Assembly: GCF_000300515.1 (NCBI RefSeq) | Contig: NZ_AMSI01000012.1 | Location: 124,001-188,000 of the forward strand | DNA: 64,000 nucleotides | Origin: Nitratireductor indicus C115 | GTDB taxonomy: Bacteria > Pseudomonadota > Alphaproteobacteria > Rhizobiales > Rhizobiaceae | Direction of reading: 5' to 3' | Part shown: piece after piece, positions 8,575 to 64,000 of the stretch | Position numbering within the stretch: the stretch's first letter is position 1 | Layout of the letters: every line of letters starts with the position of its first letter | Position numbers and translations under genes: made by a program | Notes under the pieces: generated by a model | What the model was told of the DNA's origin: nothing | Database searches by the model: none | The model's input: only the letters and a program-made list of their open reading frames with translations

Positions 8575-8859
8575 AGGTGTTTATAGAAAAGAGAAACAAA
8601 AACCTTGTTATCCAAAGACTTGTGCTCATCGATTGCTGGTTGCGCGCGTCTTCGGGTTGCAAGTTTCAGGAAATTGCGCAGTCTATCCATTGACTTGGGG
8701 CGAGGTGGGCTTCACGCTTCGTCACCTGTGCCTTTCGAGATTGCGCATGGCCGGGCATCTTGCACGCAATGTCCGGTCGCGGTTGTCGGTCTTGAAGGGC
8801 TGCACAACAATTCGACGTGCACGCAACATGAACGCGTAAATGCAGTTGGGAGACGTTTT

Positions 8860-9840
8860 ATGAAACCAAATCGTATTCTGGGTTTCGGCCTTGCGGCCGC
8901 CATGCTGGGTTCGCTCGCTTCCGGCGCCGCCAGCGCACAGGAACAGCGTTTCGTTTCCGTCGGTACGGGCGGTGTGACGGGCGTCTACTACCCGGTCGGT
9001 GGTGCGATCTGCCGTCTGATGAACCAGAATCGTCGCGAGACCGGCATTCGCTGCTCGGTCGAATCGACGGGTGGCTCGGTGTTCAACGTGAACGCCATCA
9101 AGGGCGGAGATCTGGAGTTCGGCGTTGCTCAGTCGGACGTTCAGTACAACGCCTTCAAGGGCGAAGGCCCGTTCAAGGAAGGCGGCGCGCATGAAAAGCT
9201 GCGTTCGGTCTTCTCGCTTCATGCCGAGCCGCTGACGGTTGTTGCCCGAAAGGATGCCGGCATCGCTTCCTTCGATGATCTGAAGGGCAAGCGCGTCAAC
9301 ATCGGCAATCCGGGTTCGGGCCAGCGCGCCCTGATGGACCTGCTGATTGCGTCGAAAGGCTGGACCAACGCTGACTTCGCAGTTGCTTCCGAGCTTGCTC
9401 CTGCCGAGCAGAGTGCTCAGCTTTGCGACAACAACATCGATGCGTTCGCCTACACGGTCGGCCACCCGGCCGGCGCCATCCAGGAAGCCACGACCACCTG
9501 CGATAGCGTGATCGTTCCGGTCGAGGGCGAGGTCGTCGATAAGCTGATCGCCGATCATCCCTACTACTTCAAGGCCACGATCCCGGGCGGCATGTACCGC
9601 GGCACTGACAGCGACGTGAACACATTCGGTGTGGGCGCCACTGTCGTCACCTCCGCCGACGTTCCGGACGATGTCGTGCGCGCTTTCGTCGATGCCGTCT
9701 TCAAGGATTTCGATGCTTTCAAGGCCTTGCATCCCGCGCTCGCCAACCTGACGCCGGAAAGCATGGTCAATCAGGGTAACTCCGCCCCCATGCATCCGGG
9801 CGCCGAGGCCTACTACAAGGAAAAAGGCTGGCTGAAGTAA
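8860..9840 (+). CDS. TAXI family TRAP transporter solute-binding protein
   Basis: A 326-residue periplasmic binding protein of the TAXI type. The start at 8860 is chosen because a clear signal peptide follows (positively charged start, hydrophobic core, cleavage after ASGAASAQ) and GGGAGA lies seven bases upstream; the open frame extends to 8605 without reason. The signature [20 protein letters not shown] near residue 35 defines the family. It delivers substrate to the fused permease encoded next. TAXI proteins have few known ligands (glutamate or 2-oxoglutarate in some cases). The gene is followed by a strong terminator, allowing higher output of the binding protein than of the permease. Confidence 0.95.
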
Positions 9841-9855
9841 GCCTTCAAGATCAAG

Positions 9856-9885
9856 GGGCGCCCGTAAAACGGGCGCCCTTCTTTT
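9856..9885 (+). terminator. Intrinsic terminator after TAXI binding protein gene
   Basis: A perfect nine-base-pair GC stem (GGGCGCCCG with CGGGCGCCC), loop TAAAA, followed by TTCTTTT. It lies between the binding-protein gene and the permease gene and is a classical rho-independent terminator; partial read-through would set the usual excess of binding protein. Confidence 0.92.
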
Positions 9886-9925
9886 CCCTGGAAATTAAAA
9901 CGATTCATAAGGGGATACGGGGACA

Positions 9926-12619
9926 ATGGCGACGAAACCTGAAGATGCGGGCAGGGCCTCCACGGCGCTGAATGAGGAAGAACTCCAGGATCTGGTTGCA
10001 TCCAGCGATACGGGTGCGCGCGATCCTGCCGGGACGGCGGGACTGGTCATAGCCGGCATCGCGCTGCTTTGGTCCCTCTTCCAGCTCTATATTGCATCGC
10101 CTCTGCCTTACACATTGTCGAGCCTGACGGGGCTGCCTATGGTGCTGAACGATGCCCAGTCGCGCGCCATTCATCTGTCCTTCGGCTTGTTCCTTGCCTT
10201 CATGGCTTTCCCTGCGCTTTCCTCCAGTCCGCGCGATCGAATACCGCTGCTCGACTGGGTGTTGGCCATCGTTGCTGCCTGCTGCGCGCTCTACATCTTC
10301 GTGTTCTACCGTGCCCTTGCGGGGCGACCCGGCCTGCCCATCACGCAGGACCTGATCGTTGCCGGCATCGGCATGGTGCTTCTGCTTGAGGCGACACGCC
10401 GCGCGCTGGGGCCGCCGCTTGCGATCGTGGCCATGGTTTTCCTGGCCTATGTCTTCTTCGGCTCGTCCTCCTATGTTCCCGACATCATTCGCTGGGGCGG
10501 TGCGTCCTTCAGCCGTGCGATGGACCAGATGTGGCTGTCGCCGAACGGCGTGTTCGGCGTTGCGCTCGGCGTGTCCTCGGCGTTCGTGTTTCTGTTCGTT
10601 CTGTTCGGCTCGATGCTCGACCGCGCCGGCGCCGGCAATTTCTTCATCAAGCTCGCTTTTGCCCTGCTCGGCCACCTGCGCGGCGGTCCTGCCAAGGCCG
10701 CGGTGCTGTCATCCATGATGACGGGGCTTATCTCCGGCTCTTCCATCGCCAATGTCGTCACCACGGGCACCTTTACCATTCCTTTGATGAAGCGTGTCGG
10801 CTTCACGCCTGAAAAGGCGGGCTCGGTCGAGGTCGCGAGTTCCGTCAACGGCCAGATCATGCCGCCCGTCATGGGCGCCGCCGCATTCCTGATGGTCGAG
10901 TATGTCGGCATTTCCTATCTGGAAGTAATCAAGCACGCATTCCTGCCTGCCGTCGTTTCCTACATCGCGCTGCTCTATCTCGTGCATCTCGAAGCGGTGA
11001 AGAACGACATGCCGGTGCTGCCGAAGCGTGTCACCCATCCCGCGCTCGTGTCGCTCATGCGCTCGGGCATCGTGATTGCCTCCATCGTCATTCTTGTCGG
11101 CGTGCTCTATTTCGCCATCAACTTCGTCAAGGCGGCGTTGCCGAATGTTTCGGGCACGGTTCTGGTTGCAGCGCTGCTGCTCGCCTACCTGGCGCTCATC
11201 TGGTACGCGGCAAAGGCGCCCGACCTGGAAATGGACGATCCCAACGCCCCGGTGGTGGAGCTTCCGGTCGCTTCCGAAGTCATCAAGACCGGCCTTCACT
11301 ATCTTCTGCCGCTCTTCGTCCTTGTGTGGACGCTGATGGTGGAGCGTAAGTCGCCCGGCCTTTCGGCATTCTATGCGGTGCTTTTGCTGATCGTCATCAT
11401 CCTCACACAGAAGCCGCTCAAGGCGCTCTTCCGTGGCCTGCAAAGCGACGAACAGCGCGCTGCCATTGGCGAAGGCATCACCGATCTTCGCGTCGGCCTG
11501 ATCCTCGGCGCGCGCAACATGATCGGCATCGCCTGTGCGACGGCCGCCGCCGGCATCATCGTCGGTACGGTGACGCTCACCGGCATCGGCCAGGTCATGG
11601 CCGAGTTTGTCGAGTTCCTCTCGGGCGGCAACATCTTCCTGATCCTCGTCTTCACAGCTCTGATCAGTCTGGTGCTTGGCATGGGCCTTCCGACCACGGC
11701 CAACTATATCGTGGTTTCCTCGCTCATGGCGCCGGTGATCGTCGAGCTCGGTGCGGCCAACGGGGTGCTGATCCCGCTCATCGCGGCACACATGTTCGTG
11801 TTCTACTTCGGCATCATGGCCGATGTGACGCCACCGGTGGGCCTTGCCTCCTTCGCCGCCGCTGCGGTTTCCGGGGGCGATCCGATGAAGACCGGCTTCA
11901 CGGCTTTCTTCTACTCGTTGCGCACGGTGCTTCTGCCTTTCATCTTCGTGTTCAACACGGATCTTCTCCTGATCGATGTGGGTTGGGCAGGTGCTGTTCT
12001 GATCACCTTCAAGGCGATCATCGCGATGCTGATATTCGCGGCCGCGACGCAAGGGTTCTTCATGGCGCGCAACCGCATCTGGGAGACCGTTTCCCTGCTG
12101 CTTGTCACTTTCATGCTGTTGCGTCCGGGCTTTTTCCTCGATCTGGTGCAGCCGCCCTATGTGGAGACTGCGCCCGCACAGATATTCGAGGCGGTTAAGG
12201 AAGAACCGGAGAACGCCAATATCCGCCTCTCGATCCGCGGCCCGAATTTCGACAATCCGGACCAGATCGATGAGCGCACCATGGCTTTCAATCTCGGCGC
12301 AACTGCCGACACGGGCGAGGCCCGTTTCGAGGAAGCGACCGGCCTGGTGGCCCGGGTGGAGGACGGCAAGGTCATTCTTGAGGAGCCGTTCGATATGAAC
12401 AGCCTTGCGGGCAAAACCCTGTCGAGCCTTGATTTCTATGCCGACACCCCTGTTGAGGTCACGGCGGTTCAGGTCAGCAATGAAGGGCGCCTGCCGCGTG
12501 AGGTGTTCTATATTCCGGCAATCATCCTGCTGGGGCTGGTGATGTTCAGCCAGCGCCGCCGCGGCGGCACGCTGGGCGGCAACCCGCATGCCGGCAAGCC
12601 GCAATCGGCTCAGGCCTGA
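9926..12619 (+). CDS. TRAP transporter fused permease (DctQM type) with C-terminal DUF3394 domain
   Basis: An 897-residue inner-membrane protein joining the small (DctQ-like) and large (DctM-like) TRAP subunits, the usual form for TAXI systems. Hydrophobic helices run from about residue 35 to 730; the DctM part has the motifs GLISGSSIANVVTTGTFTIP, VNGQIMPPVMGAAAFLM and MADVTPPVGLASFAAAAVSGG. The last 160 residues are mostly soluble and match the position of the DUF3394 domain found on many TAXI permeases, ending in one more membrane helix. It is paired with the binding protein upstream and a UspA protein downstream. Confidence 0.94.
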   Translation: MATKPEDAGRASTALNEEELQDLVASSDTGARDPAGTAGLVIAGIALLWSLFQLYIASPLPYTLSSLTGLPMVLNDAQSRAIHLSFGLFLAFMAFPALSSSPRDRIPLLDWVLAIVAACCALYIFVFYRALAGRPGLPITQDLIVAGIGMVLLLEATRRALGPPLAIVAMVFLAYVFFGSSSYVPDIIRWGGASFSRAMDQMWLSPNGVFGVALGVSSAFVFLFVLFGSMLDRAGAGNFFIKLAFALLGHLRGGPAKAAVLSSMMTGLISGSSIANVVTTGTFTIPLMKRVGFTPEKAGSVEVASSVNGQIMPPVMGAAAFLMVEYVGISYLEVIKHAFLPAVVSYIALLYLVHLEAVKNDMPVLPKRVTHPALVSLMRSGIVIASIVILVGVLYFAINFVKAALPNVSGTVLVAALLLAYLALIWYAAKAPDLEMDDPNAPVVELPVASEVIKTGLHYLLPLFVLVWTLMVERKSPGLSAFYAVLLLIVIILTQKPLKALFRGLQSDEQRAAIGEGITDLRVGLILGARNMIGIACATAAAGIIVGTVTLTGIGQVMAEFVEFLSGGNIFLILVFTALISLVLGMGLPTTANYIVVSSLMAPVIVELGAANGVLIPLIAAHMFVFYFGIMADVTPPVGLASFAAAAVSGGDPMKTGFTAFFYSLRTVLLPFIFVFNTDLLLIDVGWAGAVLITFKAIIAMLIFAAATQGFFMARNRIWETVSLLLVTFMLLRPGFFLDLVQPPYVETAPAQIFEAVKEEPENANIRLSIRGPNFDNPDQIDERTMAFNLGATADTGEARFEEATGLVARVEDGKVILEEPFDMNSLAGKTLSSLDFYADTPVEVTAVQVSNEGRLPREVFYIPAIILLGLVMFSQRRRGGTLGGNPHAGKPQSAQA

Positions 12620-12632
12620 GGAGGAAACAACG

Positions 12633-13058
12633 ATGTACAAGGACATCCTCGTATCCATCGATCTGGGAAATGCCGAAAACGAGCTGCGTACGCTCGAAAC
12701 GGCGGTCGACTACGCCAGAACCTTCAAGAGCCGCTTGCATATCATGACGGTCGTGCCCGATTACGGCATGTCGATCGTGGGTGGCTTCTTCCCCAAGGAG
12801 CATGAGCGCCAGGCGATAGAACATGCCAATACCGCCTTGCACGAATACACCTCCAAACACGTGCCCGATAATGTGAAACATCGGCACATCGTGGGGCACG
12901 GTTCGATCTATCGCGAGATTTTGCGTTATGCGAATGAGATCAAGGCGGATCTGATCGTGCTGTCCGCCAAGCGCCCCGGGCCTGAGGATTATCTCATCGG
13001 GCCCAATGCCGCGCGCGTCGTGCGCCATGCCGAGATTTCGGTTCTGGTGGTGCGCTGA
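12633..13058 (+). CDS. Universal stress protein (UspA family), TRAP-linked
   Basis: A 141-residue single Usp domain (MYKDILVSIDL start; C-terminal VRHAEISVLVVR strand). The start is set by GAGGAGG about seven bases upstream; the gene begins 13 bases after the permease stop, so it is in the same operon. The nucleotide-binding region near residues 108-130 is less typical (SAKRPGPEDYLIGPNAARVV in place of the GxxGx9GS/T loop, still with G and N). In Halomonas the analogous protein TeaD modulates the ectoine TRAP transporter TeaABC, so a role in tuning the neighbouring TAXI transporter is likely. Confidence 0.9.
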   Translation: MYKDILVSIDLGNAENELRTLETAVDYARTFKSRLHIMTVVPDYGMSIVGGFFPKEHERQAIEHANTALHEYTSKHVPDNVKHRHIVGHGSIYREILRYANEIKADLIVLSAKRPGPEDYLIGPNAARVVRHAEISVLVVR

Positions 13059-51663: not shown

Positions 51664-52455
51664 ATGACCATGGCGCTTTGGAAGAGTATCCGGCCCTATC
51701 TTTCCGCGGCCATACGTTTTTTCCACATCAGTTATATCGAGGCAAAAGCTCAGCATCACGGCGCAAGGCTTGGCGTTCTCTGGGGGCCCCTTTCATCCTT
51801 GTGCTTCGTGGTCATGCTGTCGCTGATCTTCCATCATTCGGAATCGATGCCGCAGAGCGATTTCTTTCTGTATGTGTTCGTTGGATACATACTTTGGAGT
51901 TTTATCGCTGAAACGATAACTGGAAGCACCGATATCATACAGAAACGGCTTGATTTTGCTGTTCACAATGGTCTCTCGGTTCCCGGTCTTTTCGGGAAAA
52001 TTCTCGTCGACCGGTTGTTTTCATATGGGTTGAACCTCGTTTCTTTGGCGCTTGTCGCGATAGTTTTTTTTCACGACAAACTTGGCGCCAGCCTTGTTCT
52101 CTTTCTTCCATTCGCCTTGATGATTGTGGCCGCGTCGTTCTTCGGAGCCTATCTGGTGAACATCATCACGATACTGTTCCCGGATACCAGGACACTATTT
52201 CAGGTCGGCGTCCGCTTCTTGTTCTTCGCCTCTCCCGTGTTCTGGAGCGCCAATGAAGTGACTGGCGGCGTTCGCGGATTGCTCACGACCTACAATCCGG
52301 TGTCCTACTTTCTGTCGATGGCAAGGCAGACGATGGGCATTCAGGTTTTTAACCCGTCTGACTGGCTCATCGCCCTTGCGGTCACGGCGGCGATCTGCGT
52401 GGCGGGCACGCTTGCCTATCTCGGCTCCCGCAATTTTATCCGAAATCTGAAATAG
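51664..52455 (+). CDS. ABC-2 type polysaccharide exporter permease (Wzm/KpsM-like)
   Basis: A 263-residue permease with six predicted helices, of the ABC-2 family that exports capsular or O-antigen polysaccharide. The motif ARLGVLWGPLSSLCFVVML near residue 37 is family-typical. The ribosome site is weak; ATG at 51664 and at 51670 are both possible. It begins the surface-polysaccharide locus and is followed after six bases by its ATPase. Confidence 0.88.
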   Translation: MTMALWKSIRPYLSAAIRFFHISYIEAKAQHHGARLGVLWGPLSSLCFVVMLSLIFHHSESMPQSDFFLYVFVGYILWSFIAETITGSTDIIQKRLDFAVHNGLSVPGLFGKILVDRLFSYGLNLVSLALVAIVFFHDKLGASLVLFLPFALMIVAASFFGAYLVNIITILFPDTRTLFQVGVRFLFFASPVFWSANEVTGGVRGLLTTYNPVSYFLSMARQTMGIQVFNPSDWLIALAVTAAICVAGTLAYLGSRNFIRNLK

Positions 52456-52461
52456 AAGATC

Positions 52462-53217
52462 ATGGCTCGGATCGACATAGAAAATGCCAGCGTCAGCTAT
52501 TACCTGCGCAAGCGGGGAGGAGCCTCCGGGCTGAAGGGTGGATCGGTCGGCGCCCAGATCATTGTTGGCAAGCGCTATCTTGAGATTGCTGCCCTTCGCA
52601 ACATTTCCCTGTCGCTCAAAGACGGGGATCGCGTCGGCCTTGTCGGGATCAATGGATCGGGGAAATCCACTCTCTTAAAGCTCTGCGCGGGCGCTGTGGC
52701 TGCGCAATCGGGGCGTGTGTCGGTCGAGGGGACGGTGAGCCCTCAATTCGCACTTGGTTCCGGGCTGCGACCTGAGCTTACGGGTCGGCAGAATGCTGAG
52801 CTCAAATGCCTTTATATGCGTGTCCCGCAAAGTATGGTCTCCCGTTACGTAGAGGAAGTGAAGGAGCTCTCAGGCCTGGGCGGTTATTTCGAGCTGCCGA
52901 TGCAGAGCTATTCTGCAGGTATGCGCTCCCGGCTCGTGATGAGTTTGCTGCGGTTGGTTCGCGGTGAAATACTGATCATGGATGAATGGATCAACGTTGC
53001 TGACCCTTCTCTCAATGCAACCGTTGGCGGTCTTCAGTCAAAGCTTATAGAGCGCTCAAAAATACTGATTTTGGCAAGTCATTCCCGGCGTGTTCTTGAT
53101 GACTGGGTCAATGAGATAATGTGGATAGATAAAGGCGAAATTCGTGACTTTGGTCCAATTGGAGATGTTTATCCAAAATACCAGAAATGGCTTACAGAGA
53201 GAAATGAAAGAAAATAG
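52462..53217 (+). CDS. Polysaccharide ABC exporter ATP-binding protein (Wzt/KpsT-like)
   Basis: A 251-residue ATPase for polysaccharide export. Walker A is GINGSGKST, the signature region is QSYSAGMRSRLVMSLLR and Walker B ILIMDEWINVADP. The short length, with no C-terminal carbohydrate-binding domain as in O9a-type Wzt, places it with capsule-type KpsT or domain-lacking Wzt. These exporters move a finished, lipid-linked chain, so chain length must be set by another protein; the giant fusion downstream is a candidate. Base composition falls towards AT at the 3' end. Confidence 0.88.
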   Translation: MARIDIENASVSYYLRKRGGASGLKGGSVGAQIIVGKRYLEIAALRNISLSLKDGDRVGLVGINGSGKSTLLKLCAGAVAAQSGRVSVEGTVSPQFALGSGLRPELTGRQNAELKCLYMRVPQSMVSRYVEEVKELSGLGGYFELPMQSYSAGMRSRLVMSLLRLVRGEILIMDEWINVADPSLNATVGGLQSKLIERSKILILASHSRRVLDDWVNEIMWIDKGEIRDFGPIGDVYPKYQKWLTERNERK

Positions 53218-53525
53218 TTATATTTTATGAGAAAAGAAAAATAGATTATTATTTTCGGTGTGTTTTGATGGTCGTTTAAAAATATTAATTTTCATAAATA
53301 TGTAATTCTAATAAACCTTGGGTTGAATTGCCAAAAAATTTCGCAATTGATATATTTTTTGAATTATATTTCATCGGCGTTCGTGAAATTTGTATGTTGT
53401 AAATGATTTGAATTCTTGCAAAGAGCCTGTTGCGCAAATAAGACGCGAAATGGATTCGTAGACGCAACCCTGGCTACCTTTTGAGCGGTGCTTGGTTTGC
53501 GACGGCTCATGAGGTTGCTGGATTT
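53218..53525. other. AT-rich gap in the polysaccharide locus
   Basis: About 300 bases that are far more AT-rich than the rest of the window, with runs of A and T. No gene, repeat or clear hairpin is seen. It separates the exporter genes from wecB and may hold the wecB promoter, a silencer-binding region, or the scar of a past insertion. Confidence 0.55.
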
Positions 53526-54653
53526 ATGAGAGTATTGTCCGTAGTCGGGACGCGGCCTGAGGCGATCAAGATGGCGCCCCTGATTCTTGCTCTGGATCAG
53601 GATGAGCGTTTCGAAGCGAGGCTCTGCATAACGGCGCAGCATCGGCAAATGCTCGATCAGGCGCTGGAGCTGTTCGGCTTGTCTCCCGCGTTCGATCTGG
53701 ATGTCATGCAGCCCGGCCAGGACCTGACCGATGTCACTGCGAAGATTGTCGTCGGGATGCGTGAGATATTGAAGGAGTTTCAGCCCGATATTGTTCTTGT
53801 TCACGGTGACACCGCTACAACTTTTGCGGCAACTCTGGCTGCATATTATCAGCGTATCCCGGTGGGACATGTCGAGGCGGGGCTGCGCACGGGGAACCTC
53901 TATTCTCCGTGGCCCGAGGAAGCCAATCGCAAGCTGACTGGCGCATTGGCTGAACTGCATTTCGCGCCTACTGAAACGGCGAAGGCCAATCTGCTGCGCG
54001 AAGGCATCGACCCCGCAGGTATTCACGTCACCGGCAACACGGTTGTCGATGCGCTCTTTCATGTCGTTGGTACGCTCAAAGACGATGCTCCAGCGCAGGA
54101 GCGTTTCTGTGACCAATTTGCATTTCTGGACGAAAGCAAGCGGCTGATTCTCGTCACGGGTCACCGCCGCGAGAGTTTCGGTGGAGGTTTTGAGAGAATC
54201 TGCACGGCCTTGGCGGAGACGGTTTCACGGTTCCCCGACGTGGAAATCGTCTACCCGGTGCATCTCAATCCCAATGTACAGGAGCCGGTTCGCCGCCTTC
54301 TTAGCACCAATGATCGCATTCATCTGATCGAACCGCTCGATTATTTGCCTTTCGTTCACCTGATGAACCGGTCGCACATCGTTGTGACGGATTCCGGCGG
54401 CGTTCAGGAAGAGGCCCCTTCCTTGGGAAAACCCGTTCTTGTCATGCGCGACACGACCGAACGTCCCGAAGCGGTGGCTGCCGGTACGGTGAAATTGGTG
54501 GGAACGGATGCCGGCAAGATTGCTGGCGAAATCGCCACGCTTCTTTCCGACAAGGATGCGTATGAGCGCATGAGCTTTGCTCATAACCCCTATGGTGACG
54601 GCAAGGCGTGCGAGCGCATCCTGTCGGCATTGGCAGCATTCAGGAAGGCCTGA
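53526..54653 (+). CDS. wecB: UDP-N-acetylglucosamine 2-epimerase (non-hydrolysing)
   Basis: A 375-residue enzyme that converts UDP-GlcNAc to UDP-ManNAc in the cytoplasm. The N-terminal [18 protein letters not shown], the middle [10 protein letters not shown] and TGHRRESFG, and the C-terminal [27 protein letters not shown] are classic for WecB. The start at 53526 ([13 protein letters not shown]) is the natural family start. It lies six bases before wecC; together they make UDP-ManNAcA for the polysaccharide. Confidence 0.96.
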
Positions 54654-54659
54654 CGTCGC

Positions 54660-55934
54660 ATGAGCTATGAAACGGTTTCCGTCATTGGTCTCGGATATAT
54701 CGGTCTGCCGACCGCAGCGGTTTTGGCGTCGCGCAGAAAGACTGTCATCGGCGTCGATATTAATGTGAAGGCTGTCGAGACGATCAACCGGGGCGAAATC
54801 CATATTGTCGAGCCGGATCTCGACATGGTGGTGCGTGCTGCGGTCACGCAAGGCTTGCTGCGGGCGACAACGACGCCTGAGCCTGCGGATGCCTTTTTGA
54901 TTGCGGTGCCGACCCCCTTTGTCGACGGGCATCAACCGGATTTGAGATATATTCGGGAAGCCAGTTTCGCCATCGCCCCGGTGTTGAAGAAGGGTGATCT
55001 CGTCATTCTGGAATCCACGTCTCCCGTGGGCGCGACGGAGGAGATGGCTGAGTGGCTTCAGGAAAAGCGACCGGATCTCACCTTCCCGCAAACGCATGGC
55101 GAGAATTCTGACATCCGCGTGGCCCATTGTCCCGAGCGGGTCTTGCCGGGGCATGTGCTGAAGGAGCTGGTTGCCAATGATCGCGTCATCGGCGGCATGA
55201 CACGGCGTTGCTCCGATGCTGCGGCCGAACTTTACAAGACCTTCGTGGAAGGCGAATGCATCATCACGAATGCGCGTACCGCCGAGATGTGCAAGCTGAC
55301 CGAAAACAGCTTCCGCGATGTGAATATCGCGTTCGCCAACGAGCTTTCGATCATCTGCGACAGATTGGGCATTGACGTCTGGGAGCTGATCCGTCTGGCA
55401 AATCATCATCCGCGAGTGAACATTCTGCAGCCAGGCCCAGGTGTCGGCGGGCATTGTATCGCGGTCGATCCGTGGTTCATCGTTGCGAAGACCCCGGACG
55501 AGGCTCGTCTCATTCGCACTGCGCGTGAAGTGAACGATGGCAAGCCTGAATGGGTGGTGGAGAAAATTCGCCACGCGGTCAGCGAGTTCCTGCTTTCCAA
55601 TCCGGATCGAACGGCAGCCAGTGTGAAGGTTGCCTGTTTCGGTTTGAGCTTCAAGCCGGACATCGACGATCTGCGTGAGAGCCCATCCATTGAAATCGTG
55701 AAGCGCTTTTGCGCCGATTTTGGCGGGCATGTCCTCGTTGTCGAGCCTCATGTTGACAGTTTGCCAACCAATCTGGGGACAGCGCAGTTATCGGCGCTTG
55801 AAGAGGCCGTGAGCAGCGCGGATATTCATGTGGTGCTTGTGGGGCACAAGGCCTTCAAGACTTCGCAGCTTTTACGCGGCGTTTCCACCCTGGATTTTTC
55901 CGGTGCCATCGCTGGGGTGATGAAAGCGGGTTAA
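54660..55934 (+). CDS. wecC: UDP-N-acetyl-D-mannosamine dehydrogenase
   Basis: A 424-residue dehydrogenase of the UDP-glucose/GDP-mannose dehydrogenase family that oxidises UDP-ManNAc twice with NAD to UDP-ManNAcA. The N-terminal NAD motif VIGLGYIGLPTAAVLA, the catalytic-loop region GPGVGGHCIAVDPWFIV with the nucleophilic Cys (about residue 265) and the C-terminal KACFGLSFKPDIDDLRESPS-like stretch are intact. It gives the likely acidic sugar of the exported polymer. Confidence 0.95.
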   Translation: MSYETVSVIGLGYIGLPTAAVLASRRKTVIGVDINVKAVETINRGEIHIVEPDLDMVVRAAVTQGLLRATTTPEPADAFLIAVPTPFVDGHQPDLRYIREASFAIAPVLKKGDLVILESTSPVGATEEMAEWLQEKRPDLTFPQTHGENSDIRVAHCPERVLPGHVLKELVANDRVIGGMTRRCSDAAAELYKTFVEGECIITNARTAEMCKLTENSFRDVNIAFANELSIICDRLGIDVWELIRLANHHPRVNILQPGPGVGGHCIAVDPWFIVAKTPDEARLIRTAREVNDGKPEWVVEKIRHAVSEFLLSNPDRTAASVKVACFGLSFKPDIDDLRESPSIEIVKRFCADFGGHVLVVEPHVDSLPTNLGTAQLSALEEAVSSADIHVVLVGHKAFKTSQLLRGVSTLDFSGAIAGVMKAG

Positions 55935-56065: not shown

Positions 56066-59000
56066 ATGACTGGTTTCAATCGGATATCGATCGACGGCGC
56101 TGAATATCTCATTGCGCTGCCGAACCAGGAGACCGACTACATCCAGAAAAAGATTGTCGAAGAGGAGCAGCCCTACGAGCTGCCCATGCTTCGTGACATT
56201 GCCAAGCGTGTTCGTCCCGACGGTCTTGTCCTGGATATTGGCGCAAATGTCGGCAACCACACACTTTATCTGGCTGCTGTTGTCGGTTGCAGCGTACATG
56301 CGTTCGAACCGAATGCCTCGCTATGCGAAGCATTGAATCTGAGCGTTGAAGCCAACGAGCTTTCGAAGAAAGTCGAAGTTCACTGTGTTGGTCTCGGACG
56401 AGAGCCTGCGAAGGCGCATTTCGGGCATACCGACGAAAGCAACCTCGGTGGCCAATCCCTCGCGATCGGATCGGATGAGGGCGACATCATCGATGTGATG
56501 CGCCTCGACGATCTGATCTTCGACAGGCCGGTCGAAGCCATGAAGATCGATGTGGAAGGCATGGAGATCGATGTCCTCGAGGGGGCCTCGGAACTCGTGC
56601 GCCGAGATCGCCCGCTTCTGTATGTGGAGTGTCTGAACGAGCAGGATTTTCAGAATATTCGCGATTGGCTGGAGCCGTTCGATTATTGCTACTGGGACAC
56701 GTTCAACGCCACGCCCACACATCTTTTCGTGCGCGGTGAAAGCGTAACGGAGGCGCAACGCATTGATCGCCTCATGACCAAGCTCGTGCGTGAGGGCTAC
56801 CAGCGCGAGGAGCGTATTCATAGCCTGCGCTCCCAGCTCGATCAGGCCAACAAGAAGTATCACGATGCAGTGGAACAGGTTTCGGTCCTGAAGCAAAGAT
56901 TTCACGATGCGAATCTGAAATACCGCGAAGTCTCCGAACGGCAGCAATCGATGAAGCGCGAAGTCGAGCTGCAAAAGACGATTCGGGAGAAGGACCTCCA
57001 GCTGGTTTCCGAACGCTCTGATGCTCAGAAAAAGCTCTTTGAAGAACGCCTTGAAGAACTCCAGCGCGGAAAAGCACTGGTTGAAGCACAGCTCAAGGAA
57101 GTGCTCACCCAGCACCAGGGTACACAGGAAAAGGCGCTCGATATCGAGGCATCGAGCGCGCAGGTCATGCGTGAGCTTAACGAACGACAGGCCGAGATAA
57201 GAGGTCTCCGCGACGAACTGACTGTCGCAAACCGGCGATATGACGAGACTGTGCAACTCAATGCTTCTCTGAAGGCGGAGATCGAGGTCCGGCGATCTTC
57301 ACATCAGGAGGAATTGACGGCTGCGGACAGACATGCGGAAGCGCAACGTAGCATGTTTGAAACTGAATTGGCGCGCCTCGGCGATGAAAATGCGGAATTG
57401 GAAACGCGAATGCAGGAAGTGGACGAAAAGCGAGAGGCCGCAGAAGCGGCCCTTCGGGAGCTCGAGCAAACCCATGACGACGCTGACCGGGAATTGGTTG
57501 AGCTGCGTTCGCAGCTTGAAGCTTTGAAGGCGGAGCTTGCTGAAAGCCACGACAAATACAGGTTGCAGGCACAGGAATTCGAGCAGCTCAAACGATCCTT
57601 AGAAGCCGAGCGCGAGGCATTCCATCAGGAGCGCGCTGATCAGCAGGAGCGGCAAAGGGCACAAAGTGCGCTCCTGGAAAGCAGTGTTACCCAAGCTCGC
57701 ACCGAAGCGTCTGTAGCCGAAAAGCGGTTGCGAGACCAGTTGCATGCAACAAACCTCAAATATCGCAAGGTCACCCAGCAACTCGATAAGGTGCGGCGTT
57801 CGCGCGCTTTCGAGGCGGCAACACATCTGAAGCAGGCCCGCCAATCCTGGAAATCGGCGGTCAAGCTGCCTTGGCGCCTGCTGAAACTGACCCGTTCCAA
57901 TCGTAGTGGCGCGTCAGGGAAAGCTATTTTAGCGAGCGAGGCTGACCGGAATGAACCGGTTGCACCGGTTGTTCTTTCTACAAATTTCGCCGAACGGATC
58001 ACGGACATTCCGCAGAAGAAGTTGCGGATGGCCTGCATCATGGATGATTTCACCTTTCAATCGTATCAGCCTGAATGCGAACTGTTCGCCCTGACGCCGG
58101 ATGCCTGGCTGGAAGAACTTGAAGGCTTTCGTCCCGACATGCTGTTCATCGAAGCGGCCTGGCGGGGCAAGGACGAGCTTTGGGGCAGCAAAGTCGGTCA
58201 CACCAGCCAGGAATTGAAGGGCATCGTGCAGTGGTGCCGGGAGCGGAAAATTCCGACCGCCTTCTGGAACAAGGAAGATCCGGTCCACTTCGAGACCTTT
58301 TTGAACACGGCGCGGCTGTTCGATCTGGTTTTCACTACGGACATGGATTGCATCCATCGCTACAAGGCGGCTTTGGGGCATGAGCGTGTGTACCTGCTTC
58401 CATTTGCCTGTCAGCCCAAGGTGAACAATCCGATTGAGAAATATGAGCGCCGGGACGCATTCTGCTTTGCTGGCGCCTATTATGTTCGCTACCCCGAGCG
58501 AACGCGGGATCTGGGCAATTTCGTTTCTCATCTGTCACAATATCGGCCGCTGGAAATTTATGATCGTAATCTTGGAAAAGATCATCCTGATTATAAATTT
58601 CCCGATGAATATCAGTCTTTTATCGTAGGGAACCTGCCCTTTGAGCAGATCGATAAGGCGTATAAGGGCTATCGATATGCAATCAATCTGAACTCCATCA
58701 AGCAATCGCAGACCATGTTCGCGCGTCGCGTATATGAGTTGCTGGCTTCCAACACGATCACGATCAGCAACTACTCACGTGGCGTCCGGCTGCTATTCGG
58801 TGATCTTGTCATCACCAGCGATGATGGCGCTGAGATTATTCGAAGGCTGGAGCAACTCGATAGCGATGAATATCGGCTGCGAAAGTTCCGCCTCGCGGGC
58901 CTACGCAAGGTGATGAGCGAGCACACTTATCAGGATCGGCTTTCTTATGTGCTGTCCAAGGTCAACGAGGCGCGCGCGCCACAGCGCCTGCCGGAAGTGC

Positions 59001-61198
59001 TTGTGACGGGACATGCGAATACGCAGGCGGAAGCCGATGCGCTTCTTTCCCATTTCAATCGCCAGACCTATGACAGGAAGCGGCTTCTCCTTGCCGTGCC
59101 CCGCTCCTTGCGCAGGCGTATTCCTGCGGGCCAGAACGTGACGGTTGTCAACGCGTCCGATAAACGTGGTCTCGGTGAGATCGCTGCCGGTTCCGAATGG
59201 ATTGCGGGTATGGTCGCCGGGGATTTCTACGGAACGAACTATCTGACAGACCTCGTTCTGGCGACCCGCTATAGTGATGCGCTGGCGATCGGCAAGGGGA
59301 CGTGCTTCTCTTGGAAGCGTGAAAGTGCGGAGCTTCAGGCACCGGACGCGGCCCTCGAATACAAGTTCGTGCCGCAATTGCGGTATCGCTCGGCGATTGT
59401 TCATATGACCAGAATTGCCGACCTCTCCTTCAATGCGTTTACTTCGGATTTGGCTGACGGTGAGATTGAGGAGGTTGGAGCCCTTTCCATAGATGCGTTC
59501 AATTATTGTCGTGATGGCAATATTGAGGGTGCTGAGCGGGAAGCAATTGAAAACACCGTTAGCGATCTTGCCGATCTGGATGTCGGTTTACCGCTCGCCG
59601 ATCTCGTGACGCGCGTGGAGGGTATTGAAGCGGAAGTGCAGTCCGAAGATGAAGCGCCTGTGCTTTCCGGTGCGGAACTCGCCGGCTTCTTCAAGAGCCC
59701 TGCGAACAAGCCCTATCGTTTGAGCGTGGAGGGTGCGGGTTGGGTGGTGAGTTCGTCACTGCCCGACGGCAAGCATGACTATCTTTATGCCGCTCAGGAT
59801 GTCACGCCGGAGGAACTGGATTTCAACGATCTGGCGTTATTTCATCTGGACGTGACGCCTGGCCTGAATCTTCAGATGGTTCTGTTGTTCCTTGACGCAA
59901 ACAAGCAGAGGATCGCGGCAGAGGTGCGTCCATCCAATCGCAATCATTCAGTGCGCATCCCTGAGGGCACGGCTTTTATTCGCATGGGCTTGCGCATTTA
60001 CGGCAATGGCGATGCCACGATCAACGGGCTTGTTCTGGGAGCACGCCGTCTGCATCCTGCCGAGGTCGTGGGCCGCAGCAAATATCTCCTGCTGACGAAC
60101 CATTATCCAAGCTACAGCGATCTATACCGCAATGGCTTCGTGCACAGCCGTGTGAAGGCCTACAAGGATCGCGGCGTGGACGTTGACGTTTTCCGCCTGC
60201 GTAAGGGGGAGGCGCTGGGCTATCACGAGTTTCAGGATGTCGATGTCATCACCGGTTCGCAAGAAGCTTTGGAAACGCTGCTGAAAAAGGGCGATTACCG
60301 GCATGTTCTGGTCCATTTCCTCGACCCGGACATGTGGACCGTTCTCAAGAACCATATCGATAAGGTCAAGGTCACCGTCTGGGTGCATGGCGCGGAGGTT
60401 CAGCCCTGGCATCGACGCGAGTATAATTATACCGACAGCGTTGCGCTGGAAAAAGCGAAGCAGGAAAGCGAAAAAAGAATGTCGTTCTGGAGGCATGTTC
60501 TCCAGGATATGCACGAAAATTTATCGCTTGTTTTTGTTTCGAATTATTTCGCTGAAGAAGTTATATCTGATGTTGGCGTAAATATTGATAAGGATAAATA
60601 TAGGGTTATAAATAATCCAATCAATACAAATCTTTTTGATTATGTAGAAAAAGACGAGAGTCATAGAAAAAAAGTTTTGTCTATCCGCCCATTTGCATCC
60701 AGAAAGTATGCAAATGATTTGACTGTCGAGGCGATCGTTTATCTCAAAGACAAGCCTTGGTTCAATGACATGGATTTCCATATCGTTGGCGATGGGGCTC
60801 TGTTTGAAGAGACATTGCGCCCCCTACAGGGGGTGGAGAATGTTAAGATCGAACGGCGGTTTTTGAGCCAGAACGAAATTGCATCCCTCCATAAGGAATA
60901 TGGAATCTTCCTCACTCCCACGAGAATGGACGCGCAAGGGGTGTCTCGTGATGAAGCCATGTCTTCAGGGCTTGTTCCGATAACCAACTCAGTTGCGGCA
61001 ATCCCCGAATTCGTGGATGAGGACTGCGGCGTGCTCGTGCCCGCCGAGGATGCGCGCGCAATGGCCAATGGAATTGAGAGGCTGTTTGAAAATCCCGATC
61101 TGTTCGTATCTCTGTCGCGCGGTGCGGCTGCGCGTGTCCGAAACCAATCAGCTCAGAAAATAGTAGTCGAACAGGAACTGTCCCAATTTATCGAGTGA
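56066..61198 (+). CDS. Giant fusion: FkbM methyltransferase - coiled coil - glycosyltransferases
   Basis: A 1710-residue protein. Residues about 50-215 form an FkbM-type SAM methyltransferase (VLDIGANVGNHTLYLA at 55; MKIDVEGMEIDVLEG near 159). Residues about 235-600 are a long coiled coil, rich in Glu, Gln, Leu and Arg. Residues about 650-970 resemble CgeB/DUF3880-type glycosyltransferases (FARRVYELLASNTITISN). From about 976 there is a GT2-like remnant, then a beta-rich stretch near 1216-1325, and a C-terminal GT4 domain (1339-1710; RMDAQGVSRDEAMSSG). It probably builds, caps and measures the exported chain. The DNA is locally AT-rich around 60520-60710. Domain borders are approximate. Confidence 0.85.
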   Translation: MTGFNRISIDGAEYLIALPNQETDYIQKKIVEEEQPYELPMLRDIAKRVRPDGLVLDIGANVGNHTLYLAAVVGCSVHAFEPNASLCEALNLSVEANELSKKVEVHCVGLGREPAKAHFGHTDESNLGGQSLAIGSDEGDIIDVMRLDDLIFDRPVEAMKIDVEGMEIDVLEGASELVRRDRPLLYVECLNEQDFQNIRDWLEPFDYCYWDTFNATPTHLFVRGESVTEAQRIDRLMTKLVREGYQREERIHSLRSQLDQANKKYHDAVEQVSVLKQRFHDANLKYREVSERQQSMKREVELQKTIREKDLQLVSERSDAQKKLFEERLEELQRGKALVEAQLKEVLTQHQGTQEKALDIEASSAQVMRELNERQAEIRGLRDELTVANRRYDETVQLNASLKAEIEVRRSSHQEELTAADRHAEAQRSMFETELARLGDENAELETRMQEVDEKREAAEAALRELEQTHDDADRELVELRSQLEALKAELAESHDKYRLQAQEFEQLKRSLEAEREAFHQERADQQERQRAQSALLESSVTQARTEASVAEKRLRDQLHATNLKYRKVTQQLDKVRRSRAFEAATHLKQARQSWKSAVKLPWRLLKLTRSNRSGASGKAILASEADRNEPVAPVVLSTNFAERITDIPQKKLRMACIMDDFTFQSYQPECELFALTPDAWLEELEGFRPDMLFIEAAWRGKDELWGSKVGHTSQELKGIVQWCRERKIPTAFWNKEDPVHFETFLNTARLFDLVFTTDMDCIHRYKAALGHERVYLLPFACQPKVNNPIEKYERRDAFCFAGAYYVRYPERTRDLGNFVSHLSQYRPLEIYDRNLGKDHPDYKFPDEYQSFIVGNLPFEQIDKAYKGYRYAINLNSIKQSQTMFARRVYELLASNTITISNYSRGVRLLFGDLVITSDDGAEIIRRLEQLDSDEYRLRKFRLAGLRKVMSEHTYQDRLSYVLSKVNEARAPQRLPEVLVTGHANTQAEADALLSHFNRQTYDRKRLLLAVPRSLRRRIPAGQNVTVVNASDKRGLGEIAAGSEWIAGMVAGDFYGTNYLTDLVLATRYSDALAIGKGTCFSWKRESAELQAPDAALEYKFVPQLRYRSAIVHMTRIADLSFNAFTSDLADGEIEEVGALSIDAFNYCRDGNIEGAEREAIENTVSDLADLDVGLPLADLVTRVEGIEAEVQSEDEAPVLSGAELAGFFKSPANKPYRLSVEGAGWVVSSSLPDGKHDYLYAAQDVTPEELDFNDLALFHLDVTPGLNLQMVLLFLDANKQRIAAEVRPSNRNHSVRIPEGTAFIRMGLRIYGNGDATINGLVLGARRLHPAEVVGRSKYLLLTNHYPSYSDLYRNGFVHSRVKAYKDRGVDVDVFRLRKGEALGYHEFQDVDVITGSQEALETLLKKGDYRHVLVHFLDPDMWTVLKNHIDKVKVTVWVHGAEVQPWHRREYNYTDSVALEKAKQESEKRMSFWRHVLQDMHENLSLVFVSNYFAEEVISDVGVNIDKDKYRVINNPINTNLFDYVEKDESHRKKVLSIRPFASRKYANDLTVEAIVYLKDKPWFNDMDFHIVGDGALFEETLRPLQGVENVKIERRFLSQNEIASLHKEYGIFLTPTRMDAQGVSRDEAMSSGLVPITNSVAAIPEFVDEDCGVLVPAEDARAMANGIERLFENPDLFVSLSRGAAARVRNQSAQKIVVEQELSQFIE

Positions 61199-61245: not shown

Positions 61246-62127
61246 TCATGAATTCCAGAATTCTTTGTCTTTTTTGTAGTATTCTGAAACGATAAGTTCT
61301 GCTGATGGCAATGTTCCATCTTCACCATAGGCGCTTTTGCGGCCAACGGTTGAAAGGCGTTTTGGGAAATCGTGAATTATTCCTATTTCCTTTAAACGCT
61401 CATTGTCTCCCAACTTGAAGATAAAATCCGGAAGGACCTGATCGTGGCTCGTGATGGTCATCCACTGAGGCTTGATGTGTGGGTCGCAATATTCCGGGGG
61501 AATATGGGAGATGAACTTCGCAGCCATTTCAGCAGAAACATCTTCGTCCATCAAAACTGAAATTGGACGAATGAAGTGCTCTTCATTCGGACTTCCCTTC
61601 GGCGCCAGCAGCTTGTCGCGGAAGAAGGAACCGAAGCGATCCATGGGTTCTCGTATGAACGTGAATTTCTTGTATCCGTGATAACGCTCATCGGTGGGGT
61701 CGATCGATTGATTGAGCGAAGTACTGCTGCTTGTATCGCGATCGGCAAATTCCTGAAAATGCGTATGCGCGAGCGCGCGGAATGAAGAAGTGCCGCATTT
61801 GTAGATTGGCAGGAAGATAACCTTTACTTCCTCGACCACGACAGCCGTACGCAGGGGCGTTTTGAGAAAGTTCTGACTGTCCGGTATGACGATGGCCGCT
61901 TCCTTGACACCTGCTGCCTTGAGGGCTGCGAGTGAGCGGAACCAGGAGCCGAACGCATTGTCGATGATGGCCGGCTTTCCGGATTTGGCGAAATCCCGGG
62001 CGAGGCTCAAACGCTCGTCCCATGGCAGGGTTGTCTTTGCGAGAAAAGGCGCCCCTTCCGCTCGTGCCTGTTCCTGCGAGAAGAGCACACGCATACCGAA
62101 TAAGTCCGCAACATCACCTGTCATCAT
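61246..62127 (-). CDS. Sulfotransferase family protein (carbohydrate sulfotransferase-like)
   Basis: A 293-residue protein. The PAPS-binding motifs of sulfotransferase family 2 are visible: a 5'-phosphosulfate loop near residue 110 (IYKCGTSSFRAL, KxGTSS type) and a 3'-phosphate loop near 165 (FTFIREPMDRFGSFFRDK). It would transfer sulfate from PAPS to a hydroxyl of a carbohydrate. Convergent with the giant glycosyltransferase gene inside the polysaccharide locus, it suggests a sulfated surface polymer. The 3' part is AT-rich compared with the window. No PAPS synthesis gene is seen nearby. Confidence 0.82.
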   Translation of the reverse strand: MMTGDVADLFGMRVLFSQEQARAEGAPFLAKTTLPWDERLSLARDFAKSGKPAIIDNAFGSWFRSLAALKAAGVKEAAIVIPDSQNFLKTPLRTAVVVEEVKVIFLPIYKCGTSSFRALAHTHFQEFADRDTSSSTSLNQSIDPTDERYHGYKKFTFIREPMDRFGSFFRDKLLAPKGSPNEEHFIRPISVLMDEDVSAEMAAKFISHIPPEYCDPHIKPQWMTITSHDQVLPDFIFKLGDNERLKEIGIIHDFPKRLSTVGRKSAYGEDGTLPSAELIVSEYYKKDKEFWNS

Positions 62128-62221: not shown

Positions 62222-62411
62222 GGCAGGGTTGTCAGGAATGCCCCTGCATAACGATTTCAACTAGGATAATTATCAAGACTGCGCAACCAACGTAGAGGTA
62301 CCCCTTGCAACGGAAAGTGAGCGGGGTCTTTGGGTTGATCCTTTCGGTGTTTGCACTATCACATGAAGCTCCAGTGGCTACGCCGGTATCAGAAAGCAGT
62401 GAGTGCAACCC

Positions 62412-62957
62412 ATGAATGGTTCGCCCAACATTCACGTCCGTCTTATCGATGCCCTTCGCGCTGATCTTGCAGCGCGGGAAGAGGAGGTGAGGCGCCTGCG
62501 CGATAGCGCCAGGTATCGCGCGGGTGGATGGTTGCTCACCGGCTGGCCTCCTGGACGTGAGACACTGAAGCTTGTGCCACGCTTGCTTCGTCTTTTCTGG
62601 GGGAAAAGCAGGCGCGCGGTGAAAAAGCCTTCAATCAGGAAAATGCTGGGTACCGGCGATACCTTCGATGCAGCGTCTGTTCTGGTTCTGGGGGCTTGTG
62701 AAGGGGGCTTGCCTTCGTTGAAAGCAAAGGCCTGGCAGACGGACGATGTCGTTTCGATGGCGCGCCGCCTCGACGCGGCAAAGACACCGGGAACGCTGAT
62801 TTTGTGCCGCCAGGATCCGGAAATTCTCAGGCGCTTGGCGCGATTGCGCATGATGGGGTGGCAGGTTTTCTGGCACTCCGCCTGCAAGAAGGACGAAGAC
62901 GATCCGGCCTTACGCGCCTATCTGCGGGCGCATGCTCTGGAATATCGGGAGCCATGA
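62412..62957 (+). CDS. Hypothetical protein in polysaccharide locus
   Basis: A 181-residue protein that I do not recognise. The N-terminus has a short charged helix likely to form a coiled coil (DALRADLAAREEEVRRLRDSA, about 12-32), then a basic, Arg-rich part, and a C-terminal half with alternating hydrophobic stretches (VLVLGACEGG, GTLILCRQDPEILRRLARLRMMGWQVFW) that looks like part of a nucleotide- or sugar-binding fold. The start is ATG at 62412 (a GTG at 62403 is possible). It overlaps the next glycosyltransferase by four bases, so the two are co-translated. Confidence 0.65.
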   Translation: MNGSPNIHVRLIDALRADLAAREEEVRRLRDSARYRAGGWLLTGWPPGRETLKLVPRLLRLFWGKSRRAVKKPSIRKMLGTGDTFDAASVLVLGACEGGLPSLKAKAWQTDDVVSMARRLDAAKTPGTLILCRQDPEILRRLARLRMMGWQVFWHSACKKDEDDPALRAYLRAHALEYREP

Positions 62958-64000
62958 AGCCGATGAGGATTCTTTACGGCTATCGATACGGGATCGTCGG
63001 AGGCGTATCGACGCAGTTGATCTTGCGGCAAGGCGCATTGCGGCGGGCCGGCCACGATTGCGAGCTTTTTTTCACGCAGGACAACGGCCTTGGAGCCGTC
63101 TTGACCGAGCGCCAAGGAATTCACTTCGGCTCGCCTGCGAAATTCCGCCGTCTGGTTCGAGCCGGTCGCTTCGACGCCGTGGTAATCATCGATACGCCGG
63201 AACTGCTCGATCTTGCCGCAGGGCTCGTATTTCATCGCGTTCCGGTCTTTCTGGATATTCACACCACCACCAGCGCGGGGCTGGCGTATCTGCGCGACGT
63301 CGACATTTCGAAACTTTCGGGAATCATGGTGCCGACGGTCTACTCGTCGAATCTTGTGCGCGCCCGATTGCCCAAAGCCGACCGCGTGAGTGTGGTGCCG
63401 AACATTATCGACAGCGATCTTTTCGCGCCTCGACCGATTACCGATACGAGTGAAGAGCAGGAAAAGGACCTGACCCGTGAATTCGTTTGGGTGGGGAAAC
63501 TGGACCAACATAAGAATTGGCGGCTGGCATTGATTTACACCGCGCTTTTCAAGCAGCTTCTGGGAAATGTTCGCCTTACGCTGATAGGCGGATACACGGC
63601 CCCTGAGAAGCAGGCCCGCGCGTTTTTTGATTTGGCCTGTGAGCTGGGTGTTTCGTCCGATGTCGATTGGCTGGATCGCGTCGAAAACAGAATGTTGCCG
63701 GCTATTTATTGCCGCAGCGCCGAAAGCGGCGGCGCCATGCTCGTGACATCGCGTGACGAGTCCTTTGGCATGGCTGCGGCGGAAGCGCTGCTTTGCGGCT
63801 GCCCGCTCATCGCGAACGATCTGCCGGTTTTCAGGGAAGTCTTCCCAGACAGCCCCCTTGTCCAGTTGCTAGACATATGGCGACCCGAAGAGGTGGCCGC
63901 TGCCGCCGGGCGCCTTTCCCGGCCGGATACGGCTCAAGTCGAAGAATTGCGCAACGAGCTCGCCGCGCGTTATGGCCCGCAAGCGTTTCTTGTGAGCATG
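62954..64000 (+). CDS. Glycosyltransferase family 4/1 protein (3' end beyond the window)
   Basis: At least 349 residues, open to the right edge. The ATG at 62954 overlaps the previous stop (ATGA). The N-terminal part (MRILYGYRYGIVGGVSTQLILRQGALRRAGH) and the C-terminal ESFGMAAAEALLCGCPLIA, with the E-x7-E pattern, mark a GT-B fold, retaining glycosyltransferase; FVWVGKLDQHKNWRLAL is the usual inter-domain segment. It adds a sugar to the surface polymer; donor unknown. Read by hand with no stop codon found. Confidence 0.88.
   Translation, partial: MKPMRILYGYRYGIVGGVSTQLILRQGALRRAGHDCELFFTQDNGLGAVLTERQGIHFGSPAKFRRLVRAGRFDAVVIIDTPELLDLAAGLVFHRVPVFLDIHTTTSAGLAYLRDVDISKLSGIMVPTVYSSNLVRARLPKADRVSVVPNIIDSDLFAPRPITDTSEEQEKDLTREFVWVGKLDQHKNWRLALIYTALFKQLLGNVRLTLIGGYTAPEKQARAFFDLACELGVSSDVDWLDRVENRMLPAIYCRSAESGGAMLVTSRDESFGMAAAEALLCGCPLIANDLPVFREVFPDSPLVQLLDIWRPEEVAAAAGRLSRPDTAQVEELRNELAARYGPQAFLVSM

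Follow-up and report, generated by a model that had tools for sequence, protein, structure and literature searches.

The genome of Nitratireductor indicus C115 contains, in the 64,000-nucleotide stretch of contig NZ_AMSI01000012.1 analysed here (positions 124,001 to 188,000, called the window), a gene for a protein of 1710 amino acids, P0001, in which an N-terminal methyltransferase (MT), a long coiled coil and several glycosyltransferase (GT) domains are joined on one chain. It is best explained, with a probability of about 0.5, as a membrane-docked polymerase of a polymer containing N-acetylmannosaminuronic acid (ManNAcA), provided with an exchangeable MT stalk; the MT most likely caps the chain ends, and the cap would give no export ticket. 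The parts of this reading differ in strength: synthesis of a ManNAcA polymer by P0001 is likely, capping of the chain ends by its MT has roughly even chances, and the use of the coil as a working ruler of chain length is a tentative proposal. Coupling of export to the cap in the window genome is contradicted by the lack of a carbohydrate-binding module (CBM) on the exporter ATPase Wzt, and is very improbable. The elements of the gene are the following:

56066..61198 (+): P0001, MT - coil - multi-GT protein of 1710 aa; a real open reading frame (ORF) with ATG start
56066..56728 (+): FkbM-family MT domain, residues 1-221, from PF05050, TIGR01444 and motifs
56729..57799 (+): coiled-coil stalk, residues 222-578 (357 aa), from the MT end to the post-coil anchor, by composition and heptad score
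57800..57898 (+): post-coil amphipathic segment, residues 579-611, proposed membrane-docking module, by hydrophobic moment
57986..59065 (+): CgeB-like GT-B glycosyltransferase, residues 641-1000, from Glyco_trans_1_2 and an alignment of 8 relatives
58985..59545 (+): alternating strand/helix region, residues 974-1160, from AlphaFold2 (AF2) secondary structure and a [DE][FY]YGxxY motif
59660..60037 (+): beta-rich domain, residues 1199-1324, with 10 predicted strands and two short helices (AF2)
60074..61195 (+): GT4 glycosyltransferase, residues 1337-1710, with MDAQGVSRDEAM at 1621, from Glyco_trans_1-type profiles and GT-B fold

As the original prediction held, MT, coil and GT domains are encoded by one ORF running exactly from 56066 to 61198, with Pfam and NCBIfam matches over cut-off. 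FkbM methyltransferases are expected to show an S-adenosylmethionine loop and a KxDxEG motif; P0001 has LDIGANVG at residue 56 and KIDVEGM at 160, together with matches to PF05050 (residues 57-207, E 3.7e-18) and TIGR01444 (E 2.3e-25), each over the cut-off of its database. The coil, predicted at about 360 residues, measures 357. Proline and glycine account for 1.6% and charged residues for 39% of a 369-residue coil stretch, and 73% of the 357 coil residues fall in windows of 28 residues that exceed, in a heptad score of our own, the 95th percentile of shuffled sequences; no significant 3.5-residue period runs over the whole length, and there is no single coherent register. An extended coil between a distal catalytic domain and a polymerase, a feature of coil-ruler terminators, is thus present by sequence. 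In the segment that follows, sampled windows starting at residues 585-594 have a hydrophobic moment at the 94th-99th percentile, and AF2 predicts helices with a predicted local distance difference test score (pLDDT) of about 58-66. No 19-residue window of P0001 exceeds a mean hydropathy of 1.37, and because of this low maximum no transmembrane helix is expected by the usual threshold.

The C-terminal half contains at least two GTs. The CgeB-like domain is recognised by Glyco_trans_1_2 (PF13524, residues 852-963, E 9.7e-16, over cut-off), while its DUF3880 half stays under its own cut-off (E 1.4e-4) and the AF2 model is poor at residues 794-922 inside it. The GT4 domain, of GT-B fold, matches Glyco_trans_1_4 at residues 1538-1676 (E 4.1e-14, over cut-off), GT4 profiles spanning residues ~1533-1684. 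GT4 enzymes have an E-x7-E motif; at this position D-x7-E is read in all eight aligned proteins. Between the two GTs, residues 974-1160 may be read as a GT-A-like module from the [DE][FY]YGxxY motif, which occurs in 32 of 32 proteins of the family described below (GDFYGTNY at 1052 in P0001), and the beta-rich domain is possibly a carbohydrate-binding sandwich with a CBM role, to judge from the model. This middle region has no Pfam match in the window protein and no sequence or profile match in the PDB; in the relatives, three single-member Pfam matches (E 0.1-0.18) are unconvincing, and fold searches were filled by matches of the GT4 domain, so that the region is not callable as a new fold.

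The same architecture, for which a search had been proposed, was found elsewhere, and 32 proteins sharing the GT core were compared: the window protein, 7 strong relatives from a contig scan (L032-L038; the weak GT4 match L039 was dropped), 20 more from a Pseudomonas sample and 4 from a family sample, with L039, L102 and the partial relatives L096-L100 left out. All seven strong relatives join GT core, N-terminal MT and coil, four with an FkbM domain and three with another MT. In the family sample of 395 genomes, 5 have the core over almost its whole length and 10 in all give some match at E<=1e-60; at E<=1e-100 it is likewise nearly complete in 21 of 398 genomes sampled from the genus of G103, a Pseudomonas, and in 2 of 398 sampled from the phylum, the window genome being one of the two. 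A chance fusion or an assembly artefact is ruled out by a GT core common to 32 proteins.

The neighbouring genes point to polymer synthesis. Upstream of P0001, on the same strand, lie in this order:

51664..52455 (+): Wzm-like permease P0002, 263 aa (NF050109, E 2.5e-18, below equivalog cut-off)
52462..53217 (+): Wzt-like ATPase P0003, 251 aa (NF050108, E 3.1e-52, below equivalog cut-off)
53481..54653 (+): WecB, UDP-GlcNAc 2-epimerase, P0004 (TIGR00236, E 3.2e-157, over cut-off)
54660..55934 (+): WecC, UDP-ManNAc dehydrogenase, P0005 (NF008286, E 5e-219, over cut-off)

WecB and WecC together make UDP-ManNAcA. WecC is found at 31 of the 32 loci and WecB at 28, in compared loci of 12.9-25.5 kb where missing neighbours may be edge effects; at 29 loci WecC immediately precedes the GT-core gene in the same orientation, the exceptions being L081, where it stands beside a separate MT ORF, L092, where it has another place in the locus, and L032, with none within 24.7 kb. 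Given this conserved context and the known reactions of the two enzymes, ManNAcA is probably one sugar of the polymer; heparinase-like neighbours, present at 8 of the 32 loci, fit a uronic-acid polymer. Wzm/Wzt or Kps-type export genes accompany the GT core at 6 of the 32 loci. From their gene content L093 and L094 are read as Kps-type capsule loci: in L093 the order is Capsule_synth, Poly_export, wecB, wecC, the giant gene, Capsule_synth, ABC2_membrane and a 215-aa ABC_tran, and PF05159 is found in 5 of 18 genomes, with Capsule_synth on both sides of the giant gene in G244 and G300 (L094). The position of the giant among capsule genes in L093, G244 and G300 therefore supports a role in polymer synthesis. 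KpsC/KpsS (PF05159) has no match in the window genome, and by this marker the window locus is not of the Kps (group 2/3) type.

In the mechanism proposed, WecB and WecC would supply UDP-ManNAcA, and the CgeB-like GT and the GT4, perhaps together with the GT-A-like module, would take turns in adding sugars to a lipid-linked chain, while the amphipathic segment after the coil would dock P0001 to the inner membrane and Wzm/Wzt would export the polymer. The MT, at the far end of the stalk, would most likely O-methylate the non-reducing, growing end of those chains that are long enough to reach it. P0001 would then act like WbdD or O7 ORF6, the cap being no export ticket because no CBM was found on Wzt.

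The analogy with coil-ruler terminators is reasonable as far as the plan of the protein is concerned, since the order MT - coil - amphipathic segment - GT is collinear with WbdD and O7 ORF6. The further claim of the original prediction, a new way to tie synthesis, length measurement and capping together, was anticipated in print: according to the available text of PMC11231755, Klebsiella O12 WbbB is polymerase, coil ruler and terminator in a single enzyme, and Klebsiella O7 ORF6, a tested terminator-polymerase, has an N-terminal methyltransferase, a central coil and two C-terminal GTs, and both terminates and polymerises. Like O7 ORF6, P0001 is one chain with N-terminal MT, central coil and C-terminal GT modules in an ABC-transporter locus; O7 ORF6 differs, as its available description goes, in the kinase domain and CBM-like fold that separate its MT from the coil, in making methylphosphate and in its GT2 modules, whereas in P0001 the coil comes directly after the MT and the GTs are CgeB-like and GT4, a comparison at the level of descriptions. 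O12 WbbB is likewise a single protein with an N-terminal terminator (putative in P0001), a coil and GTs near the C-terminus; unlike P0001, its terminator is a Kdo transferase and its transporter is described with a CBM. In the accessible parts of PMC3482155 and PMC11231755, Escherichia coli O9a/O8 WbdD has its MT distal on the coil, as P0001 does, and a membrane-proximal amphipathic helix that recruits the polymerase; unlike P0001, its polymerase WbdA is separate, O9a WbdD has a kinase (O8 is methyl-only) and export needs the cap, via the CBM of Wzt. Orthologs of the ORF6 N-terminus, a part of them fused to additional GT modules, are reported from alphaproteobacteria, gammaproteobacteria and cyanobacteria (PMC11231755, available text). 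Variation of coil length has also been described, in a context of scoring thresholds, for "putative methyltransferases" encoded in many group 3 capsule clusters of E. coli; these resemble the present family in variable coil length and transporter-dependent capsule loci and, unlike P0001, have no fused GT or function stated in the available part of PMC13171606. What is new relative to the published one-piece systems are the different GT modules, a kinase-free MT of FkbM or other type, and a Wzt that lacks a CBM. Literature searches, covering few subscription papers, found no publication joining FkbM, coiled-coil, glycosyltransferase and O-antigen, and none combining five of wecB, wecC, heparinase, FkbM, glycosyltransferase and Pseudomonas.

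Several observations weigh against the capping polymerase. The CBM on Wzt, which has a cap-recognising role in terminator systems, is missing: the 251-aa P0003 shows no C-terminal Wzt_C at E<=1, and PF14524 has no match in the whole window genome. The exporter thus lacks a chain-recognition domain, as had been predicted, though all terminated O antigens exemplified in the available text of PMC11231755 have a CBM on Wzt. Because this checkpoint was looked for and is not there, P0001 is not classed with the terminator-CBM systems; it may work like them nonetheless. No kinase family is among the Pfam and NCBIfam matches of P0001 and the coil starts right at the MT end (residue 221), hence, judging from these matches, P0001 is not a methylphosphate terminator of O9a/O7 type. 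About 380 residues of the middle region are without family assignment, and the structure prediction of the full protein, proposed as a check, provided the secondary structure of that region within a model of moderate quality (pLDDT 67.0, predicted template modelling score 0.40).

Further points against the capping polymerase, and one in its favour, come from the relatives. Among the 32 proteins, 7 carry an FkbM domain, 19 another class I MT (called UbiG-like; recognised by motif, with Pfam Methyltransf_23/11 in the two that were scanned, L033 and L036) and 6 no MT on the chain, including L081, in which the MT and much of the coil are encoded by a second, overlapping ORF. The three MT states require 6 changes on the GT-core tree, or 5 without L081; of its 29 inner branches 23 are starred, and some long branches leave the deep order unsure. 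From MT end to anchor the coil ranges from 51 to 799 residues. Five close relatives that are intact but MT-less (L084, L085, L087, L089, L091) retain the locus; their coil has no more than 51-79 residues, counted in MT-less proteins from the first possible start codon and therefore an upper bound, and no match to either MT type, the only two sought, was found at these loci; in four MT-bearing proteins the coil has only 91-98 residues. The polymerase does not always come with an MT and a long coil, and on this point, as on the CBM, the terminator analogy finds no support. Within one clade of close relatives the coil measures 457 (L078), 496 (L074), 621 (L075) and 770 residues (L077), a spread of hundreds of residues that fits a fast-tuned ruler and equally a loosely constrained spacer. 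Coil lengths also vary modulo 7, which rules out a strict conservation of heptad register. In favour of the capping polymerase stands the pattern of coil indels. Coiled coils tolerate indels of 0 or 4 modulo 7, and when close relatives are compared, 17 of the 36 distinct sizes of at least 7 aa belong to these classes (10.3 expected, binomial P 0.013); the result is suggestive only, as the two classes were picked once the tally was known and the same events can recur in several pairs. No tandem DNA repeat was found in the window coil; the coil DNA of L072 has a 117-bp unit in 1.9 copies plus short repeats, and that of L077 a 12-bp repeat only. By eye, a protein repeat of about 35 residues is seen in Pseudomonas coils.

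At L081 the two overlapping ORFs, 6823-10566 and 10484-12748 (-), encode MT-coil (754 aa) and coil end-GT core (1247 aa), and could be a real split or a sequence error; its close relatives L079 and L080 have one ORF of 2091 aa instead.

The alternative that survives best is that the MT decorates the chain end or the repeats as a surface epitope, the coil being a scaffold or oligomerisation stalk and chain length resulting from the balance of polymerase and exporter, as in CBM-less systems; this is plausible, if somewhat short of even chances. It would account for the Wzt without CBM, and it has precedents in the accessible text of PMC10629545, where the terminal pyruvate of Klebsiella O1 is an epitope with the rest of assembly unaffected, and loss of the terminal 2-O-methyl of Vibrio cholerae O1 Ogawa does not stop export, the Vibrio transporter being without CBM. 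Ogawa thus resembles the putative terminal O-methylation beside a CBM-less ABC transporter considered here (no coil is mentioned for it in that text), and a known terminal methylation that export does not require takes further strength from the terminator analogy. Exchange and loss of the MT resemble antigenic diversification, and the MT of P0001 has a weak, sub-threshold likeness to V. cholerae RfbT (PF05575, E 0.054). Yet decoration creates no need for a 357-residue stalk on a polymerase, or for the still longer ones of relatives, while the published terminators keep the same separation, and the five intact MT-less proteins are also without a long coil.

The family could offer a way to separate two processes. 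The published ruler systems compared here couple capping to export, which makes ruler and exporter hard to tell apart; the GT-core family, with one polymerase core, coils of very different length, an MT exchanged or removed and a changed exporter, is a natural series that would allow comparison of strains as a test of the ruler and could separate length control from cap-dependent export. Its export genes are indeed diverse. The window, L032 and L092 have a Wzm/Wzt pair whose Wzt, 249-251 aa long, gives no Wzt_C match at E<=1, and in L036 the 472-aa Wzt has a weak Wzt_C-like end (E 0.022, below cut-off). At the 25 gammaproteobacterial loci there is no match to four Wzm/Wzt queries, and a conserved neighbour of about 580 aa, or its transmembrane half, is present; L095 has neither within 12.9 kb. 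At E<=1e-20, genome-wide searches detected a Wzt like P0003 in G104 and G107 and none in G102, G103 and G106, so that ABC export may serve some of these genomes; its strict exclusion from gammaproteobacteria is countered by G104, the genome of L035, with an ABC2_membrane gene and a Wzt bearing Wzt_C on the giant's contig, about 28 kb away and outside the locus. On these gene contents, cap-dependent export through a CBM on Wzt does not look general for the GT-core family.

The ~580-aa neighbour joins an ABC-exporter-like transmembrane half to a kinase-like domain in place of the ABC ATPase. In an alignment of five, this domain keeps invariant Lys and Glu and has no invariant catalytic Asp, which weakens the idea of a kinase-MT cap split over two proteins in gammaproteobacteria, as does a link to coil length that is mainly that of one clade. 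At L083, L085, L086, L087, L088, L089, L090 and L091, with coils of at most 98 residues, only the transmembrane half matches, and both halves are kept at L084 (coil 79), at L081 and at all 15 loci whose coil has 233 residues or more; the short-coil loci and L084 make up one clade, and the loss of the kinase-like half may therefore be one event. An extended form of the reading, in which an exchangeable MT on a fast-evolving coil caps the ManNAcA polymer at a set length, the exporters cannot read the cap and the ~580-aa membrane protein is the gammaproteobacterial exporter, is unlikely.

That P0001 does not polymerise, and is a multi-step GT for a short defined oligosaccharide or glycolipid sugars with the coil as docking platform for partner GTs, would agree with the unproven fold of the middle region and with a coil-amphipathic module that recurs in neighbouring GT-like proteins (the module's profile hidden Markov model matches GT_coil proteins of L035, L032 and L092 at E 2.3e-11 to 8.6e-10, and weakly, at E 0.0031, the short coil protein at window 62403-62957 (+)), but is improbable given the export and heparinase-like genes, which suggest a uronic-acid polymer.

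Partial architectures occur in the same bacterial family: FkbM-coil-CgeB (L096:6120-9107), UbiG-like-coil-CgeB (L097:5362-8322) and MT-GT4 (L099:8330-10597), each locus with Wzm-like and Wzt-like genes and a Wzt of 248-272 aa without Wzt_C at E<=1. A second partial relative at L095 (10888-12933, 681 aa), cut by the contig end and near the full-length giant, covers the middle region and GT4 core.

The contig stops at 189565 (contig numbering), 1565 bases past the window, and the locus may therefore be cut. A Sulfotransfer_2 protein adjoins the giant at window 61246-62127 (-) (E 1.7e-8), with no match at the other 31 loci, and the polymer of the window locus may be sulfated. The short coil protein (62403-62957, +) is followed by a GT4 (62804-64000, +) and by a further GT-like protein (L002:3023-4348), whose N-terminus resembles, by eye, the coil motif of the giant.
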